In this document: one piece after another, positions 8,962-42,985 of the stretch
Layout: each line of letters begins with the position of its first letter
Numbering within the stretch: position 1 is the stretch's first letter
DNA from: Microbispora hainanensis
GTDB taxonomy: Bacteria > Actinomycetota > Actinomycetes > Streptosporangiales > Streptosporangiaceae
Direction of reading: 5' to 3'
Assembly: GCF_036186745.1 (NCBI RefSeq)
Contig: NZ_CP108086.1
Coordinates: 8,308,001-8,372,000, forward strand
Length of the DNA: 64,000 nt
Notes under the pieces: generated by a model
The model's input: only the letters and a program-made list of their open reading frames with translations
The model's database searches: none
What the model was told of the DNA's origin: nothing
Translations under genes and position numbers: made by a program

Positions 8962-11469
8962 TCAGACCGCGTCGTCGTCGGTCACGACGAGCCGGGCGAA
9001 GCCGTTCCCGATCGTCGCGTTGACCGGCACCGAGGCCACCACCTGGTAGGACTGCGGCTCGGCCGCCACCGCGGTGTCGCCGTTGACGGGCACCTGGAAG
9101 GACGCCTGCAGCGACCTGGCCGGGATGACGACCTCCTGTGCCGCCGAGGCGATCACCGGGGCGGCGCCGGTCGCGATCGCCTGGATCTGGACCGTCACCG
9201 GCGTGGGGCTCTTCTCCGACAGGCGCACCGTCATCGTGGCCGTGCCAGGGCCGTCGCCCTCGTCCACCGTGACGCTCTCCACCGACACCTGCGGCAGCTT
9301 GCCGGTGCGGGCGTCACCCGCGGCCACCGTGCCGAACGCGAGATCGGCGAGGTAGACCGCGCCCTTCTCGCTCGCGCCCGAGATCCGGATCTCGCTGATC
9401 TGCTGCGGCTTGAGGCCGGTGAGCGAGCTCAGCGGGACGCGTACGGTGCGCAGCCAGGTCTTGGGCAGCGGCGAGGCCGTGCCGGGGAACGCCGTGAGCG
9501 CGTCGCTCACCTCGGACACCTTGACGGTGCGGGACGCGCCGTGCTTGTCGGCGATCGTGACCGCGAGGTCCACGTCGCCGGTCGCCGTCTCGTCCCTCGC
9601 GACGCGGAAGGTGAGCGCGTCGTAGTGGGAGACGTTCTGGTCGCGGTTGTCGATCGGCACGGTCACCGTGCCCGTGGGGTCGCTCCAGGAGAACCGCAGC
9701 ACCGGCGTCGAGGCGACGTTGTTCGCGTACGTCGCGGGCGTCCACGACGGCGCCTGCGACGTGGTCAGCGTGGAGGCGCAGGACGGCAGGCCGCTCTGCG
9801 GCGAGCGGTCGAGCATGCCGGCGCAGATGACCGCGGTTGCCGAGCCGGAGACCCGCGTGGACGGCGCGAGCGACGTGAAGGAGGCCACGTCGAAGCGCTT
9901 GCTCGCGGGCGCCTGGGCGACGGCGTGCACGACGGCCCGCCCGGCGGAGGCGGTGGTGCCGCCGCTGCCGTCGAACAGCGGCAGCAGGCCCTGCTCACGG
10001 CCCTGGACGAGGCGGAAGAACCCCGCGATGTACGCGGTGCCGACGGCGTACTGCTCGGCGGCGGTCAGCCGCGACGGCGCGGTGCCGCCGCAGACCGGGT
10101 CGTTGCGGTTGGACCAGTCGTCGGACGCCGGCGCGTGCGCCACGCCCGGGGTCCACTCGGTGTTGAAGAAGTTGTGGTCGGCGCCCATGACCATCAGCGA
10201 GGAGCGGAAGGCGGGGTCGTCGTCCTCGGCGTATCGCGAGTCGTCGTAGAAGTGCTGGCCCTGCTGGTTGGAGACGTCGCCGTCGCAGTAGGGCAGGATG
10301 ACGGCCATCGGCGTGCCGGGCAGGGTCGCCCGTGCGAAGTCCGTCGGCGCGAGCGGGAGCACCGCCTTGATCCCGTACGGCTTGGCCCGGCCCGCGTTCA
10401 TCAGCGCGGCCTTGACGACGCCCTCGCCTCCGCGCGAGTGACCCATCAGGCCGACATCGGCCATGTCGAGGCGGCCCTTGAACAGGCTGACGAGCTTCGC
10501 GTCGCCCACGCCCCGGTCGGCGTCGGCGAGCAGGTCGAGGTGGCGCATGACGACCTCGCCCCGGGCCAGCGCGCCCCGGTCCTCGCTGTAGGGGTTGTCG
10601 GCGGCGTTGACGCCGTTGGCGCTGACCGACACGACGACGTAGCCGTGGCTCGCGAGCACGTCGGCGGGGCCGTCGTAGCCCTGGTAGCTGGCGATCGGCT
10701 GCTGCCCCGCCGGGCAGGGCCACTGGGTGTTGGACGACGTCCAGGCCGTCGGGTTGTAGCAGGCCGAGTGGCGGCCGTGCAGGAAGACGACCAGCGGGCG
10801 CTTGCCGCGGGCGCCCTCCGGCAGGTAGACCTTCGCCCGGATCTCGGCCGGACGGCCGCCGAGCCCCTCCAGGGTGATCGCGGTGTCACCGAAGTCGTAC
10901 TCGCCGTGGGTCACGGCGTACGGGCCGGGCGCGGCGGGGTCGACCGGCGCGGGATCCGGCTTGCCGGGCGGGCCCGGGGGGTTGCCGGGCGGGCCAGGCG
11001 GAGTGCCAGGCTTGCCGGGCGGAGTGCCAGGCTTGCCGGGCGGACCGGCGGGCGGACCGGCGGGCGGATCGGCCGGCGGGTCGGCGAGCATGGGCGTGGT
11101 CTTGGCGGCCGCCGCGGCGGCCTCGGGCACCTCGCCGTTCCAGGCCACGTCGACGGACGACGCGGAGGCGACGGCGGGGTCGGGGGTGACGACGGTCAGC
11201 GTCATGCCGTCGGGCGACTCCTCGGCCGGGCCGAGCGACCGGCCGTCCGCCGCGAGCTCGGGGACCGCGTCGCGGACCGGCAGGGGCGCGTTCAGGTGGA
11301 GTGTGACCCGGTGGCCGCCGCCGACGGGTTCGACGGTCCAGGTGCCGTCCTTCCCGACCGAGCCGGGCGGCTCTGCGTACGCGGGCCCTGCGATGAGGGG
11401 TGTGGACAGGGTCGCGGCCGTGACGGCCGCGGCGAGCGCCTTGGTCCAGGCGCGCACAGGGGAGCGCAT
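8962..11469 (-). CDS. secreted multidomain alpha/beta hydrolase with Calx-beta-like end
   Basis: 835-aa secreted protein. A Sec signal peptide (about residues 1-32, cut after AYA) is followed by a beta-rich domain, then a Pro/Gly linker with repeated PPGKPGTPPG-type units (about residues 130-190). An alpha/beta hydrolase domain follows, with VVFLHGRHSACYN (oxyanion region) and the nucleophile elbow GHSRGGEG. A carbohydrate-binding-like or jelly-roll segment comes next, and the C-terminus resembles a Calx-beta repeat (VESVTVDEGDGPGTATMTV). The enzyme is probably an extracellular esterase or lipase-like hydrolase on a polymer; the substrate is unknown. Start ATG 11469 has GAGAAAG upstream; an in-frame ATG at 11499 is an alternative. 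Confidence 0.75.
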   Translation of the reverse strand: MRSPVRAWTKALAAAVTAATLSTPLIAGPAYAEPPGSVGKDGTWTVEPVGGGHRVTLHLNAPLPVRDAVPELAADGRSLGPAEESPDGMTLTVVTPDPAVASASSVDVAWNGEVPEAAAAAAKTTPMLADPPADPPAGPPAGPPGKPGTPPGKPGTPPGPPGNPPGPPGKPDPAPVDPAAPGPYAVTHGEYDFGDTAITLEGLGGRPAEIRAKVYLPEGARGKRPLVVFLHGRHSACYNPTAWTSSNTQWPCPAGQQPIASYQGYDGPADVLASHGYVVVSVSANGVNAADNPYSEDRGALARGEVVMRHLDLLADADRGVGDAKLVSLFKGRLDMADVGLMGHSRGGEGVVKAALMNAGRAKPYGIKAVLPLAPTDFARATLPGTPMAVILPYCDGDVSNQQGQHFYDDSRYAEDDDPAFRSSLMVMGADHNFFNTEWTPGVAHAPASDDWSNRNDPVCGGTAPSRLTAAEQYAVGTAYIAGFFRLVQGREQGLLPLFDGSGGTTASAGRAVVHAVAQAPASKRFDVASFTSLAPSTRVSGSATAVICAGMLDRSPQSGLPSCASTLTTSQAPSWTPATYANNVASTPVLRFSWSDPTGTVTVPIDNRDQNVSHYDALTFRVARDETATGDVDLAVTIADKHGASRTVKVSEVSDALTAFPGTASPLPKTWLRTVRVPLSSLTGLKPQQISEIRISGASEKGAVYLADLAFGTVAAGDARTGKLPQVSVESVTVDEGDGPGTATMTVRLSEKSPTPVTVQIQAIATGAAPVIASAAQEVVIPARSLQASFQVPVNGDTAVAAEPQSYQVVASVPVNATIGNGFARLVVTDDDAV

Positions 11470-38389: not shown

Positions 38390-39499
38390 GTGCTGCTGCC
38401 ACGGGTCAAGCGGAGGCACGAGCCACACCGCTTCGAGGACGGAACGGTACGCATCGGCGGCGAGATCTACGGGCTGGCCGCCGAGATCAGGGATCCGACG
38501 GGGGGCGCGTGGGCCGCGCTCAGCCTGATGGACGGCACCCGGTCTCCCGACGACGTCGCGGAGGCCGTGTGCCGTCGCCTGCCCGGCGTCTCCGCGTCCC
38601 AGGCGGCGCGGATCGTCGCCGCCCTCATCGCGTCGGGGCACGTGGAGGACGCCGCGGCTCCGGCGCCGGGCGAGCTCACCGAACGGGAGCGCACCCGGTA
38701 CGACCGGAGCCGGGCGTTCTTCCAGCAGGTCGACCTGGTGCCTGGACGGCAGGGGTGGGACGCGCAGGTGCGGCTGCGCGCCGCCCGGGTCGTGGTGCTG
38801 GGCCTCGGCGGCACGGGGAGCCATGCCGCGTGGGCCCTCGCCGCCTCCGGCGTCGGCCGCCTGCACTGCGTCGACGCCGACGTGGTGGAGCTGTCGAACC
38901 TGAACCGTCAGGTCCTCTACACCGAGGACGACCTCGGCCGGGCCAAGGCGGACGTGGCCGTCGGCAGGTTGCGCCGGCTGAACTCCGACATCGAGGTCAC
39001 GGGCGAGCGGCGGGTGATCGGCAGCGAGGCCGACCTGCTGTCGATCCTGGCGGGCGCCGACGTCCTCGCGCTGTGCGCCGACGAGCCGAGGGAGCCGGGC
39101 ATCCGGATCTGGGCCAACCGGATCTGCGCGCGGGCCGGCGTGCCCTGGGTCGGCGGAGGCTACAACGGCCCGCTCGTCACCGTGGGCACCTTCGCACCCG
39201 GGCGCGGCGCCTGCTACGAGTGCCTGGCTGCGGGCGAGGCGCGTCGCCGCAGGCCGGGCCTTCCGGTGGACCTCGGAGGACCGGGCGTGGTCGCCGCCTC
39301 GGCCGGCCTGTCGGGGCACCTGGTCGCCCATTCGGTGATCTCGCTGATCACCGGAGTGCCCGAGCCCGCAATCGGAACGGTCGTCGGGCTGAACCTCATC
39401 GCATCCGACCAGCATGTGTGGGTCCGGCATCCGCCTCGCCCCGGCTGCCCGGTCTGTGGAATTCAGCGGACATCGGCCGAGTCGCAAAACAGGACTTGA
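38390..39499 (+). CDS. ThiF/E1-like adenylyltransferase with N-terminal RRE-like domain (RiPP enzyme candidate)
   Basis: 369-aa protein. Residues 1-90 resemble a PqqD/RRE-like winged helix (IYGLAAEIRDPTGGAWAALS, then LMDGTRSPDDVAEAV and a C-terminal helix). Residues 128-345 form a ThiF/E1 domain: nucleotide loop GLGGTGSHA (138-146), DADVVELSNLNRQ (162-174) with the catalytic Arg, and Lys in GRAKADVA. Zinc-type Cys pairs are CYEC (275-278) and CPVC (353-356). E1-like enzymes adenylate carboxylates, as in MccB and cyclodehydratase partners. With the adjacent 41-aa gene, the likely substrate is a peptide. GTG start with GAGGAGGAA upstream. Confidence 0.85.
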   Translation: MLLPRVKRRHEPHRFEDGTVRIGGEIYGLAAEIRDPTGGAWAALSLMDGTRSPDDVAEAVCRRLPGVSASQAARIVAALIASGHVEDAAAPAPGELTERERTRYDRSRAFFQQVDLVPGRQGWDAQVRLRAARVVVLGLGGTGSHAAWALAASGVGRLHCVDADVVELSNLNRQVLYTEDDLGRAKADVAVGRLRRLNSDIEVTGERRVIGSEADLLSILAGADVLALCADEPREPGIRIWANRICARAGVPWVGGGYNGPLVTVGTFAPGRGACYECLAAGEARRRRPGLPVDLGGPGVVAASAGLSGHLVAHSVISLITGVPEPAIGTVVGLNLIASDQHVWVRHPPRPGCPVCGIQRTSAESQNRT

Positions 39500-39581
39500 C
39501 CGATCATGTGCAACATCCGAACATTTAGGTGTTTTCTCGCGCGAGGTCCGCACCACACAAATCCACAACAGAAGGTGCCCG

Positions 39582-39707
39582 ATGACCCCTCAAGAGCAAA
39601 ACCAGACCCAGCCGGAGGAAGAGGTCGAGCCGATCGCGGCCGATATCGCGATCCGCAGGCTCGACAAGATCGAGACGACGGCCTTCAGCCAGGGGAACTC
39701 GACCTGA
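39582..39707 (+). CDS. candidate RiPP precursor peptide A (41 aa)
   Basis: A short frame starting at ATG 39582 with GAAGG 7 bases upstream. The peptide has a Gln/Glu/Pro-rich acidic leader (TPQEQNQTQPEEEVEPIAAD), then IAIRRLDKIETTAF and an S-Q-G-N-S-T tail. The block IAIRRLDKIET aligns with ITIRLLDAAET of the 42-aa gene at 42123 (pattern I-x-I-R-x-L-D-x-x-E-T), the strongest evidence that both are real and recognised by the same enzyme. Strongly predicted to be translated; the modification is unknown. It has no Cys. 82 bp after the ThiF gene. Confidence 0.7.
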   Translation: MTPQEQNQTQPEEEVEPIAADIAIRRLDKIETTAFSQGNST

Positions 39708-39909
39708 GGCCGTCCGGCGGTGCCTGACGCATGCCGCCCGCCACGAGCGGGTTTCCCGGTGGACGCATCGCGAGGCGGAGGAGGCCGCGACGGAGCCATG
39801 GGCGCCTTTCCCGGGCCCCGCGGAAAGCCCGTGCCGGCGCGGGATTTCCGCGAGCGGTTCCCCGGGCCCTGCAGTGGTTCCGGTCTCCGTGATGGTTTCG
39901 AGACCCGCA

Positions 39910-40059
39910 GCACTTCCGGGATCCGCCGCACTTCCGGGCTCGGCTGCACGCCCGGGATCCGCCGCACTTCCGGGCTGCGCCGCGGTTCCGGGATCTGTGG
40001 CGATTCCGGGCGCGTACGGAATCACCACGGGAAGCGCGTACGGAATCGCCACGGGAAGG
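39910..40059. repeat. tandem 18-bp x6 and 24-bp x2 repeat block
   Basis: Six copies of an 18-bp unit close to GCACTTCCGGGATCCGCC (39910-40017) are followed, with a 6-bp overlap, by two copies of a 24-bp unit starting GCGTACGGAATC (40012-40059). It lies in the gap between precursor A and the M50 gene. Confidence 0.9.
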
Positions 40060-40163
40060 ACACCGATTTCGGTCCCTCCGGAAAATCCGTTTCCGCGAGG
40101 AGTTCACCAAGGGTGACCCGCGGCGAGGCGCCGTACGCAGTGGGATGTGATTCGTCAGGCAGG

Positions 40164-40192
40164 ACCGGGGCGGGCCGTGCGCCCGCCCCGGT
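40164..40192 (+). terminator. hairpin upstream of the M50 gene
   Basis: Perfect 11-bp arms ACCGGGGCGGG / CCCGCCCCGGT with a 7-base loop, 22 bp before the M50 start. It could end the ThiF-precursor A transcript and lower read-through, so that precursor is made in excess. Confidence 0.7.
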
Positions 40193-40213
40193 GCCCCCCG
40201 CAGGTCACTCGTC

Positions 40214-41428
40214 ATGACGGCGACCCGGGTCATCCTGCACGACCTCGGCGTACGCCGGGATCGCGCGGAGTGGATCGTCGGACGGGTGGAGACCGGGGAC
40301 GTCATCGCCGTGCCCGAGCAGGGCATGCGGGTCATCCGCCTGTTCCAGGAGGGGGCCACGGTCCCCGAGGTGGAGCGCCGGCTCGGCGCGGAGACCGGGA
40401 CCCGGATCAACGTGGGCGGCTTCGTCGACGGCCTGGTGCGAGCGGGCCTGGTGGCGGCGGTGGACGGCCACCCCGTTCCCGCGCCCGCTCCCCCGCCGCC
40501 CACCTTTCCGCGGCTGCTGCCCCGCCACGTGCGGTGGACGCTCGATCCGGTGCTGCACGCCGCCCTGGCGGCCGTGATCCTGGCCGGTGTGGTGGTGGCG
40601 CTGCTGCGGCCGGGCGTGATGCCCGGCTGGCGGGACCTGCTCTGGAGCGACCACGGGACGCTGGTCCTGCTGGGGCAAACGGCGGCCGGCTGGCTGCTGA
40701 TCCTCCTGCACGAGCTGGCCCATCTGTGCACGGCTCGCGCCGCCGGCGTGCCGGGGCGCATCAGGTTCGGCACCCGTCTGCAGTTCCTCACGGCGCAGAC
40801 CGAGGTGTCGGGCATCTGGCTGGCGGAGCGCCGGGTCCGGCTGACGGTCTACCTCTCGGGCATGGCGCTGGACGCCGCCCTGTGCGCGGTCTGTCTCCTG
40901 CTGACCGCGACGACGGGGCCGCACCCGGCCCTGTCGGTCGTCGCCCTGACGGCGCTGGTCATGCTGTCGGCGCAGTTCCTGGTGTTCATGCGCACCGACC
41001 TCTACTTCGTCCTGCAGGACGTGACGGGCTGCCGGAACCTGTACGGCGACTCCGTCGCGTACGCCGCGCACGTGTGCCGCCGGGTCCTGCTGCGCCGGTC
41101 GGCCGATCCGCTCGCCCGGCTGCCCAGGGCCGAGGGCCGGTGGGTCCGGGCGTACACCGCACTGCTCGTCGCCGGGACCGCGCTGTGCCTCTGGCTCGCC
41201 GCGGCGGTGACGGTCCCGGCGACCCTGGGCCTGCTCGCCGGTGCCGTGCGCGCACTTCTCGACCCGCCCGGCTGGGTGGCCGCGGCGGACGGCGTGGTCA
41301 CGGTGCTGGTCGTCACCGGGTTCCACGTCCTCTGGGCCACGACGTGGTGGCGCAGGCACGGCCCGAAGGCGCGCCGTGCCGCCGGATTGCTGAGGAGGAA
41401 CCGTGATCCCGAGCGAGGTGTTCGATGA
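40214..41428 (+). CDS. M50-type membrane metallopeptidase with PqqD-like N-terminus
   Basis: 404-aa protein. Residues 1-85 resemble a PqqD-like peptide-binding fold (VPEQGMRVIRLFQEGATVPE then GFVDGLVRAGLVAAVDG). A Pro-rich linker leads to several membrane helices with the zinc motif HELAH (166-170) and the second conserved segment MRTDLYFVLQDVTGCRNLYG. This build recalls YydH-type M50 proteins of peptide loci. It may cut or export the modified peptides. The gene overlaps the next by 26 bp. Confidence 0.82.
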   Translation: MTATRVILHDLGVRRDRAEWIVGRVETGDVIAVPEQGMRVIRLFQEGATVPEVERRLGAETGTRINVGGFVDGLVRAGLVAAVDGHPVPAPAPPPPTFPRLLPRHVRWTLDPVLHAALAAVILAGVVVALLRPGVMPGWRDLLWSDHGTLVLLGQTAAGWLLILLHELAHLCTARAAGVPGRIRFGTRLQFLTAQTEVSGIWLAERRVRLTVYLSGMALDAALCAVCLLLTATTGPHPALSVVALTALVMLSAQFLVFMRTDLYFVLQDVTGCRNLYGDSVAYAAHVCRRVLLRRSADPLARLPRAEGRWVRAYTALLVAGTALCLWLAAAVTVPATLGLLAGAVRALLDPPGWVAAADGVVTVLVVTGFHVLWATTWWRRHGPKARRAAGLLRRNRDPERGVR

Positions 41429-42041
41429 CGTCAGGGCCGCCGACGGCGAGTTCCTGGGGTTGGCGGCCTACCAGGCGGAGTTCGAGGAGGTCTACCGCGA
41501 CGCGTCGGAGGTGGTGTGGAAGCTGGAGCGCGCCCAGCACTTCCACGAGCCGGCCGTGCCGAGCTGGCGGGCCGCCGACGCGGGCGACTGGGCGAAGGCC
41601 GTCGAGCTCATCGAGGAGATGCGGGCCCCGCTGACCGCGATGTACCGCGAGCGGGCCCCGTTCCGGCGGCTGCGTGTCGTCGAGCTGCCCCTCACTCCCT
41701 ACCTGCGGTGGGAGGCGCAGATCTTCGCCGTACGGGTGGCGGCGGGCGAGGAGATCAGAGTGATCGGAGCGGCGGCGGTCGCCCCCCTGGAGACCCGGGC
41801 GCCGCTGCCCGAGCTGGTGGTCTTCGGCCCGAGCCTGCTGTACGAGGTCCGCTACGACGAGATCGGGGCCGCCGTCGGGGCCCGCCGGATCACCGACACC
41901 GCGGTCGTCGCCCCCTGCCTGTCCGCCCTGGCCTCCCTGTACGGCGAGGGCGAGGACCTGATGCCGTTCTTCGAACGCGAGGTGGCCCCGCTGCCGCCCC
42001 CGCTCGATCTGTCGGAGAAGTCCGCGGAGATTGGGCCTTGA
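41403..42041 (+). CDS. DUF6879-like protein A
   Basis: 212-aa soluble protein. It shares with the downstream paralogue the blocks VVWKLERAQHFHEP, RRLRVVELPLTPYLRWE / RRLRIVEMPPTPYLQWE, and EVRYDEIGAAVGARRITDT / EILYDEIGAHVGGRRITDT. These resemble the W-x-L-E, R-x-x-V-x-x-P-x-x-x-Y-L and Y-D motifs of DUF6879, a family I know mostly beside XRE/DUF397 regulators. Here it sits in a peptide-modifying locus. GTG 41403 has GAGGAGG upstream and lies in the end of the M50 gene. Role unknown; peptide binding or immunity is possible. Confidence 0.7.
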   Translation: MIPSEVFDDVRAADGEFLGLAAYQAEFEEVYRDASEVVWKLERAQHFHEPAVPSWRAADAGDWAKAVELIEEMRAPLTAMYRERAPFRRLRVVELPLTPYLRWEAQIFAVRVAAGEEIRVIGAAAVAPLETRAPLPELVVFGPSLLYEVRYDEIGAAVGARRITDTAVVAPCLSALASLYGEGEDLMPFFEREVAPLPPPLDLSEKSAEIGP

Positions 42042-42122
42042 CCCTGAATCGGCAGCGGCCAACGATCGACGTGTCGCCCTCGGGGGAGAGTTTGCGGCCA
42101 CGCCGACGAACGGGAGGGTGAG

Positions 42123-42251
42123 ATGAAGCCGGCCGAGCCAGAACCCGAGGTGGTGCAGGAGACCGAAGGAACGGCGAGGACGAGGCAGATCACGATCAGG
42201 CTGCTGGACGCGGCGGAGACGGCCGTGTGCAGCAACTCGACGGGGAACTGA
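42123..42251 (+). CDS. candidate RiPP precursor peptide B (42 aa)
   Basis: Too short for usual gene calling. ATG 42123 has GGGAGGGTGAG just upstream. The peptide has an acidic leader (MKPAEPEPEVVQETEG), a basic stretch TARTRQ, then ITIRLLDAAETAV and a C-S-N-S-T-G-N tail. It aligns with precursor A over I-x-I-R-x-L-D-x-x-E-T. Unlike A it carries one Cys and ends in Asn; MccB-type E1 enzymes act on a C-terminal Asn, so the end residue is worth noting, though A ends in Thr. It is followed by a hairpin. Confidence 0.7.
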   Translation: MKPAEPEPEVVQETEGTARTRQITIRLLDAAETAVCSNSTGN

Positions 42252-42277
42252 CTGACCAGACGTCCGCGGAAGATCCA

Positions 42278-42318
42278 AGCGCGCCAGTTTCCAGATCCGG
42301 GCCGGGGCCTGGCGCGCT
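42278..42318 (+). terminator. hairpin after precursor B
   Basis: Perfect 10-bp arms AGCGCGCCAG / CTGGCGCGCT with a 21-base loop, between precursor B and the second DUF6879-like gene. A partial terminator would favour precursor over downstream protein. Confidence 0.65.
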
Positions 42319-42355
42319 CCGACCAGCGATTCGGCTTCTGGCCGAAGGAGACTTC

Positions 42356-42985
42356 ATGCCCGGAGAAGCGTTCGAGCACGTCAGACAGGCCGCGGGAGAG
42401 GTGCTTCCCGTGGTGGAGTACCGGACCGAGCTCTACGACCACCTGCGCCGGATGGAGGGTGTCGTATGGAAGCTGGAACGCGCCCAGCACTTCCACGAGC
42501 CCGACACCCCGAGCTGGGTCGCCATGATGAGCGGTGACTGGGACCGGTCGCTCTCGCTGATGGCCGAGATGCGCTTCGCCGACGACCTGCCGCCCCGGGC
42601 GGAGCTGCGCCGGCTGCGGATCGTCGAGATGCCGCCGACGCCCTACCTGCAGTGGGAGATCGTGCTGCTCGCGGCGCGCACGCGGGCGGGCGAGCGGGCG
42701 CGGGCGCTGCACGCCCGGTCCGTACGCCGCCTGGAGACCCGCGCTCCGCTGCCCGAGCTGCTGATCGTCGACAGGGACCTGATGTACGAGATCCTCTACG
42801 ACGAGATCGGCGCCCATGTGGGCGGGCGGCGGATCACCGACACCCGGGTGGTCGGGGACTGCACGCGAGCCGTCGCGGAGCTGTACGCCGGCGCCGAGGA
42901 CATGGTGGCCTTCCACGACCGCGAGGTGGCACGGCTGCCGCCGCCGGGCACCGGGCGGATCCTGTCCCGCCCCGGCCACCCGTGA
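42356..42985 (+). CDS. DUF6879-like protein B
   Basis: 209-aa paralogue of the protein at 41403, with the same ordered blocks (VVWKLERAQHFHEPDTPSW, RRLRIVEMPPTPYLQWE, RRLETRAPLPELLIVDRDL, YDEIGAHVGGRRITDTRVV). ATG 42356 has AAGGAG 6 bases upstream. Each paralogue lies next to one precursor (A-type protein before precursor B, B-type after). Role unknown; two copies suggest one for each peptide, or a heterodimer. Confidence 0.7.
   Translation: MPGEAFEHVRQAAGEVLPVVEYRTELYDHLRRMEGVVWKLERAQHFHEPDTPSWVAMMSGDWDRSLSLMAEMRFADDLPPRAELRRLRIVEMPPTPYLQWEIVLLAARTRAGERARALHARSVRRLETRAPLPELLIVDRDLMYEILYDEIGAHVGGRRITDTRVVGDCTRAVAELYAGAEDMVAFHDREVARLPPPGTGRILSRPGHP

Follow-up and report, generated by a model that had tools for sequence, protein, structure and literature searches.

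Enzymes in which a RiPP recognition element (RRE), a leader-binding domain of the pathways to ribosomally synthesized and post-translationally modified peptides (RiPPs), is fused to a ThiF-like domain have been described as adenylating a carboxylate that is then attacked by an internal nucleophile, resulting in macrocyclisation (PMC12150305, PMC12250964). In the Ind, GRC and enterofaecin systems of Firmicutes such a fusion (IndF, GrcB and EnfB, respectively) adjoins a short precursor gene, and the Ind cluster is minimal, consisting of precursor, ThiF, peptidase and transporter (PMC12150305, PMC12250964). The GRC type has radical SAM enzymes and a Glu-Cys thiolactone. For EnfB, conserved ATP/Mg residues (Arg, Lys and Asp) have been named (PMC12250964). 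Membrane M50 proteases that process small RiPP precursors are represented by EpeP of the epipeptide and TglG/TmoG of the pearlin pathway (PMC10885120), and fusions of an RRE with a leader peptidase are known for lasso peptides (PMC7470986). Here we analysed a stretch of 64,000 nucleotides from Microbispora hainanensis (GCF_036186745.1, contig NZ_CP108086.1, positions 8,308,001 to 8,372,000; hereafter the window), in which a candidate RiPP locus built on a ThiF protein occupies positions 38390-42985. By three sequence features (an RRE fused to a ThiF/E1 domain, an adjoining short precursor with a conserved leader, and the ATP/Mg residues of the enzyme) the locus is placed in the ThiF-like adenylyltransferase (TLAT) RiPP kind.

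The locus contains six genes, all on the plus strand, as the first-pass annotation of the DNA had listed them: a ThiF gene (38390-39499, GTG start, 369 aa, Pfam ThiF 1.5e-46), the gene of precursor peptide 1 (39582-39707, 41 aa, MTPQEQNQTQPEEEVEPIAADIAIRRLDKIETTAFSQGNST), an M50 protease gene (40214-41428, 404 aa), the gene of DUF6879 protein 1 (41403-42041, Pfam 2.6e-34), the gene of precursor peptide 2 (42123-42251, 42 aa, MKPAEPEPEVVQETEGTARTRQITIRLLDAAETAVCSNSTGN) and the gene of DUF6879 protein 2 (42356, or the listed GTG at 42227, to 42985, Pfam 1.4e-28). The general idea of that annotation, an E1-activated peptide carboxylate with M50 processing, stands as a supported reading; the modification itself, with adenylation, ring closure, cleavage and all other functions, we infer. 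In the form to which we give about an even chance, the locus makes one or two RiPPs, the C-terminal carboxylate being adenylated by ThiF, the ring closed by a Ser or Cys and the leader removed by the M50 protease. The strand-like leader motif IxIRxLDKxETT of each precursor of about 41 residues would be bound by the RRE domain of ThiF, and the ThiF domain, with ATP and Mg2+, would adenylate the C-terminal carboxylate. A Ser or Cys of the same peptide, at position -6 in the window's clade, would then attack and give a six-residue macrolactone or thiolactone with loss of 18 Da. The membrane M50 protein, with an RRE fold of its own, would bind the same leader and cleave it, and may help the ring to leave the cell; some relatives have, in place of M50 or in addition to it, a nearby gene for an M14 peptidase or MFS transporter. 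The DUF6879 proteins, in this view catalytically dead members of the phospholipase-D fold, would bind either the peptide or the product and serve as sensor, chaperone or immunity protein.

The two tiny genes share the motif IxIRxLDxxET, as had been noticed in the first-pass annotation. Peptide 1 has the leader motif IAIRRLDKIETT and the C-terminal part AFSQGNST, with Ser at -6, while peptide 2 has the leader motif ITIRLLDAAET and ends in AVCSNSTGN, where Cys (-7) directly precedes the Ser at -6. We analysed 141 ThiF loci, consisting of the window, 60 loci chosen for spread (four of them paralogues from the window genome; four wanted loci were left out of this choice) and 80 of at least 449 confirmed loci. 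The strict motif was defined as [ILVF]x[ILVF][RKET]x[LM][DEGSTK]xxE[TSA], lying 2-16 residues ahead of the stop and having a start codon upstream. It was matched 110 times inside -600..+1500 of ThiF (294 kb in total) and not at all in 1,468 kb of flanks, where the same pattern was applied to the same stretches over five times as much DNA. The association of the peptide gene with ThiF is not due to chance, and the co-conservation that the first-pass annotation had predicted was thus found. A strict-motif gene adjoined ThiF at 106 of the 141 loci (110 when positions to +4500 were counted) and at 91 of 120 loci with distinct ThiF. For the latter number, and for a tree of ThiF, 140 of the 141 loci were long enough (L041 was excluded), and 20 duplicates over residues 61-300 were removed. 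Wherever M50 or DUF6879 lay downstream of ThiF (97 loci), a motif gene was present, 91 times in the strict and six times in an altered form. The six altered cases (L086, L130, L132, L133, L134 and L184) were recognised once the strict result was in hand, through looser patterns or visual inspection; L086 is included because its DNA is identical to that of L184.

Across the family the precursor gene either follows or precedes ThiF or is divergent from it, and on the ThiF tree these position labels required 18 changes compared to 62 when shuffled (120 distinct loci). The C-terminal ends of both peptides (15 residues in peptide 1, 11 in peptide 2) are identical in four other genomes of the genus. 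Pairwise pN/pS of the peptides (five sequences) ranged from 0 to 1.43 and was undefined in 3 of 20 pairs, being too noisy with too few sites. Third-position G+C was 0.88 and 0.90 in the genes of peptides 1 and 2 and 0.91-0.95 in the four larger genes, and ribosome-binding-like sequences (GAAGG, GGGAGG) precede both peptide genes. In the two annotated plasmid records that were inspected, the precursor genes were unannotated.

The ThiF protein (38390-39499) is, from its sequence, an RRE-E1 fusion with an intact E1 active site: residues 1-90 form the putative leader-binding RRE and residues ~120-356 a ThiF/MoeB-type domain, with GxGGxG, D164, N170/R173/Q174, K186, D231 and the Cys pairs 275/278 and 353/356. 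Among 34 aligned ThiF rows, Gly138/140/141/143, Asp164, Asn170, Arg173, Gln174, Lys186, Asp224, Asp231 and Cys275/278/353 were invariant in all. We infer that the Arg, Lys and Asp named for EnfB have their counterparts among R173, K186, D224 and D231. The solved structures (PDB) matched by sequence were, in order, MccB (1.7e-29, over the whole protein), MoeB (7.8e-27), ThiF (1.1e-26) and PaaA (9.6e-24), and only the match to PaaA, over residues 4-204, spans the N-terminal leader-binding region. A profile of the first 97 positions also had PaaA, the pantocin A enzyme, as its best match (8.4e-10). The best NCBIfam models were those of MoeB/ThiF, all far below their cut-offs.

The position of a possible nucleophile was examined in the C-terminal tails. 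Ser or Cys occupied position -6 in 27 of 30 distinct tails of peptides lying after ThiF in the first set (27 tails from the strict pattern and three from altered-motif loci found with a looser one), and the next best position reached 12 of 30. None of 5,000 within-tail shuffles gave so high a count. Forty later loci, 28 with a strict and 35 with any motif gene, were then available; since 10 of them may repeat first-set DNA, the test was limited to tails that were new. There were 15 such tails, three of the downstream type (one from the strict, two from the looser pattern), and all three had Ser or Cys at -6, which brought the total to 30 of 33. When positions were counted from the leader instead, those filled in all 33 tails had Ser or Cys in at most 16, and leader-anchored position 10 had it in 11 of the 18 tails that were long enough; the distance from the leader to the -6 residue varies. 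Ser and Cys exchange at this position, as in YSGNSNS, YCGNSNS and KCGNSNS. At the C-terminus of 68 distinct tails, Asn and small residues predominated (N 19, G 17, A 11, S 11, T 4).

Several observations weigh against this reading. The tails share descent, so the shuffles overstate the evidence, and the later test is small, two of its three tails, both from the looser pattern, closely resembling a known Nonomuraea type. Of the prediction set down before the later loci were analysed, the half concerning -6 held, and the half stating that no other position would exceed 60% failed because -2 is Ser in two of the three later tails. Three downstream tails, two from Micromonospora and one from L081, break the -6 rule, and in peptide 2 the actual nucleophile could be the Cys at -7. 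Among 41 distinct tails of the upstream and divergent group, 13 had Ser or Cys at -6 and 14 had it at -4, and some clades (LREGG, IERDEG, IQNKQIDS) have neither residue at -6 in any tail. Because the upstream and divergent tails break the pattern, one chemistry cannot cover the family; judged from the tails, the -6 pattern is a trait of the window's clade, and different nucleophiles would have to serve in the others. A ThiF relative is found without a recognisable peptide at eight loci (seven distinct) of this genus. Finally, no exporter gene belonging to the locus was found among the scanned neighbours, the MFS gene lying 4.3 kb downstream.

A clade comprising L087-L095, L228-L237 and L242 (tails LREGG, IERDEG and NRGGASG) retains an Arg three residues past ETT and is without Cys; in the LREGG-type clade Ser occurs only near the end, in some members. 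The chemistry of the LREGG-type clade must differ.

Other uses of the adenylated carboxylate have to be weighed against ring closure at -6. The acceptor could be another one, giving amidation, a Lys lactam, an imide, or transfer to a molecule or protein as a peptide tag. EnfB is described as making imides and amides (PMC12250964), Lys occupies -5 in all five distinct tails of one Streptomyces clade, and another clade has LREGG-like ends; in the window's clade, however, the Ser/Cys at -6 suggests an ester or thioester within the peptide. The recurring families tested with Pfam included no E2/E3-like genes, no search being aimed at them, and we regard another acceptor as unlikely for this locus. 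In a microcin C-like pathway ThiF would form an N-P bond between a C-terminal Asn and a nucleotide, the product being a Trojan-horse antibiotic. MccB is the closest solved relative of ThiF by E-value, 17 of the 30 distinct downstream tails end in Asn, as does peptide 2, and an MFS transporter family occurs near some loci. The GNSN ending of some tails resembles that of MccA, MRTGNAN (PMC12250964, PMC7136475). Peptide 1, presumably a substrate of the same enzyme, ends in Thr, however, whereas the published mechanism needs Asn. Moreover, 49 of the 68 distinct tails end in another residue, the precursors, unlike that of microcin C, have a long conserved leader, and no second tailoring enzyme recurs across clades, although the simple gene caller used missed some ThiF genes. 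We therefore consider such a pathway improbable. Microcin C in the strict sense was rejected on the Thr ending of peptide 1; of the 68 distinct tails of the family, 19 end in Asn.

A side chain rather than the C-terminus could also be the substrate, as in the chemistry of PaaA: ThiF would activate the Glu (or Asp) of LDKxETT and the conserved Thr would attack, the C-terminus staying untouched. That ETT is among the most conserved parts of the peptides and that the N-terminal domain of ThiF is closest to PaaA are in line with this, but some loci replace the Glu while otherwise retaining the motif (KVGPT, KAGPT, KSGAA), LD-ET is better explained as an RRE-binding strand, and the -6 pattern is left unexplained, so that we think side-chain activation improbable as well. 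The pantocin A core is Glu-Glu-Asn. This EEN core was absent from both peptides and from 82 motif-to-end strings of the family, and pantocin A was ruled out by its lack; the presence of M50 and DUF6879 is a further difference. A further alternative is that no RiPP is made, ThiF being an E1 of the sulfur-carrier or regulatory type to which the tiny genes are unrelated. In its favour, the scores of MoeB and ThiF come close to that of MccB, and NCBIfam ranks its MoeB/ThiF models first. Residues 128-254 are also matched by PADLOC E1-E2 models (6.1e-15), and four ThiS-like genes are present in the genome. Against this stand the RRE domain, the co-conservation with a peptide in many genera and the distance of the ThiS genes: no ThiS/MoaD partner was found near the locus, the nearest of the four lying 3.3 Mb off, or 1.9 Mb if the chromosome is circular. 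A sulfur-carrier or defence E1 was thus thought very unlikely. The first-pass annotation had named a sulfur-carrier ThiF with a ThiS-like partner as the case that would overturn its interpretation; that the case is unlikely agrees with the RRE and the distant ThiS genes, while by sequence alone it is less clear-cut.

Fusion of an RRE to a ThiF-like domain is likewise seen in the ocin-ThiF and cyclodehydratase partners of thiazole/oxazole-modified microcins (TOMMs), and the corresponding model TIGR03882 gave 22.2 bits with our ThiF, below its cut-off of 36.9. In contrast to those proteins, the E1 active site is intact here and no YcaO is near. The sole YcaO found in the genome, at 747117-748130 of the 8.8 Mb contig, is 7.6 Mb away (~1.2 Mb if circular), in agreement with the first-pass annotation, which saw none at the locus; a TOMM docking protein was rejected for this reason. 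The Ind, GRC and enterofaecin systems share with the locus the RRE-ThiF fusion next to a short precursor. As far as they are described, they differ in the leader motif and in their WWIVI or NWYFI cores, compared to the polar Ser/Asn/Gly cores here, and Ind has an M16 peptidase instead of an RRE-fused M50. The presence of DUF6879 and the actinobacterial host set the locus apart further. The main text of PMC12250964 contains no mention of Streptomyces, actino- or M50, and this ThiF-peptide family was not found in the open-licence literature. As far as searched, the new elements are the family in actinobacteria, its leader motif, the Ser/Cys pattern at -6, the fusion of an RRE to M50 and the partner with a pseudo-phospholipase-D fold.

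The M50 protein (40214-41428) scored 0.0055 with Pfam Peptidase_M50, below the cut-off. HExxH and RTDxY were invariant in 24/24 and 28/28 aligned sequences and correspond to HELAH (residues 166-170) and RTDLY (260-264) in the window. A profile of its first 92 positions had TbiB1, a PqqD protein and TfuB1 as the top three solved matches, all weak (E 0.03-0.3). In the predicted model (mean pLDDT 92) residues ~1-90 form four strands followed by three helices. In the fold search this model matched TbiB1 with its leader at probability 1.00, a TM of 0.70-0.72 of the target and E 0.1-0.4, and a lasso B1 protein, TigE, McbB and a sactipeptide synthase at probability 0.87-0.97; no whole-model match reached E 0.001, and the other high-ranking rows were unrelated helical proteins. 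The N-terminus is thus predicted to have the PqqD/RRE winged-helix fold, therefore ThiF and M50 probably read the same leader. Such a fold sets this protein apart from EpeP and TglG/TmoG, and no report of an RRE-M50 fusion was found in the open-licence literature. Foldseek of the membrane part gave no useful match, an absence which is not evidence. At 15 of 39 M50 loci the start of the M50 gene falls at the ThiF stop or ahead of it, which is not so in the window.

The two DUF6879 proteins are 51-52% identical, confirming that the pair is paralogous as first noted. For protein 2, the ATG at 42356 is a more likely start than the GTG at 42227, because GAAGGAG precedes 42356 and because of the alignment of DUF6879 proteins. 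The predicted fold is that of the phospholipase-D superfamily, and the catalytic HxKx4D (HKD motif) was found in 0/21 and 0/16 aligned rows. TrmB-type regulators and FAM83 have a phospholipase-D fold without catalysis; compared to these, the DUF6879 proteins showed 7-16% identity over 123-147 residues with an rmsd of 3.6-4.4. DUF6879 was present at 47 of the 141 loci, all of the downstream-peptide type (44 strict, three loose). No paper on DUF6879 was found in the open-licence literature. Outside ThiF loci (L191-L195), three of the four DUF6879 genes from other genomes adjoin a gene for a helix-turn-helix regulator.

M50 occurs at 74 of the 141 loci and both M50 and DUF6879 at 24, so that both are optional in the family; the locus is not unique either, since the window genome has five ThiF genes at 55% identity or more, one of them split over two frames. 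These two points correct the first-pass annotation. The split paralogue (L041, ~9024-10080) is still followed by a peptide gene and an open M50 gene. ThiF relatives were detected at 1e-60 in 97 of 341 genomes of the host's family and at 1e-50 in 8 of 296 genomes of a spread sample of the class, six of them from the host's family. Hosts among the matches listed were Microbispora, Planotetraspora, Herbidospora, Nonomuraea, Streptomyces, Micromonospora, Glycomyces, Nocardia and Amycolatopsis, and the named relatives at 91-92% ThiF identity among them were Microbispora. Gene clustering in 61 and 80 neighbourhoods, with a simple gene caller that recovered ThiF itself at only 51/61 and 74/80 loci, showed ThiF, M50 and DUF6879 to be widely common, other families following clades. 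A peptidase M14 family was near 17 of the 80 named loci, 11 of them without M50 (three proteins from two loci were Pfam-tested), a SARP/NB-ARC family near 17 (three Pfam-tested) and an MFS transporter family near nine (two members Pfam-tested). These neighbours fit a processed, regulated and exported peptide and may in places be there by chance.

If our reading is true, a cassette of two or three genes cyclises polar peptides of 6-7 residues without YcaO, lanthionine synthetase or radical SAM in Streptosporangiaceae, Streptomyces, Micromonospora, Glycomyces, Nocardia and others; in the window's clade the ring of each peptide can be predicted from the -6 pattern, and the locus is the first context for DUF6879 and for RRE-fused M50 proteases. 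More tentatively, the loci might represent a large unrecognised actinobacterial family of minimal macrocyclic peptides made by an E1, with a signalling role comparable to that of the lactone and thiolactone autoinducers in Firmicutes. An RRE-E1 cyclase and an RRE-M50 protease-exporter would produce a constant six-residue (thio)lactone in Streptosporangiaceae and other rings (Lys lactam, other Cys positions) elsewhere, read by DUF6879 as a pseudo-phospholipase-D sensor or by adjoining SARP/NB-ARC regulators.

On the 5' side the locus is flanked by PadR and DUF1707 genes (Pfam), and on the 3' side by MarR, an alpha/beta hydrolase, a uracil-DNA-glycosylase-like gene and two TetR genes, followed by the MFS gene. 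No radical SAM protein was detected with Pfam in eight window proteins and 10 neighbours, a genome-wide search for radical SAM not having been made. Scanning the locus for promoters and terminators yielded nothing, and a search of plasmid DNA with the locus as query gave no match. Tandem repeats of 18 bp and 24 bp lie on the plus strand between the peptide 1 and M50 genes (39905-40058) and probably have no role; the gap containing them is ~107-138 nt longer than in three orthologous loci.

A recognisable peptide was absent at 14 of the 141 loci: the eight paralogues of the genus, L097, four Streptomyces loci (L154, L156, L158 and L162, where it was searched beside ThiF) and L164, which is truncated by a contig end. 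The orphan RRE-ThiF paralogues are L038 and L040 of the window genome and L119, L131, L146, L148, L071 and L076; they may act on peptides encoded elsewhere or be relics. At L151 and L226, three tandem Cys-containing precursor genes lie upstream of one ThiF, with the tails GVCQDCNYA, QACPANNPGCGAG and QGCPTHGSG. At 11 Pseudonocardiaceae loci a short reading frame lies right before ThiF, seven of these frames beginning with MIEF or VIEF and four being less alike. Several short frames with TF[CS] near the end were seen at the Pseudonocardiaceae loci (L163, L165, L171, L173, L174, L177, L179-L182 and L186), and large genes of the SARP or NB-ARC family are nearby. In Crossiella (L165, 11123-12634) an IS605 OrfB/TnpB-like gene with a Cas12f1-like TNB domain lies directly 3' of ThiF.

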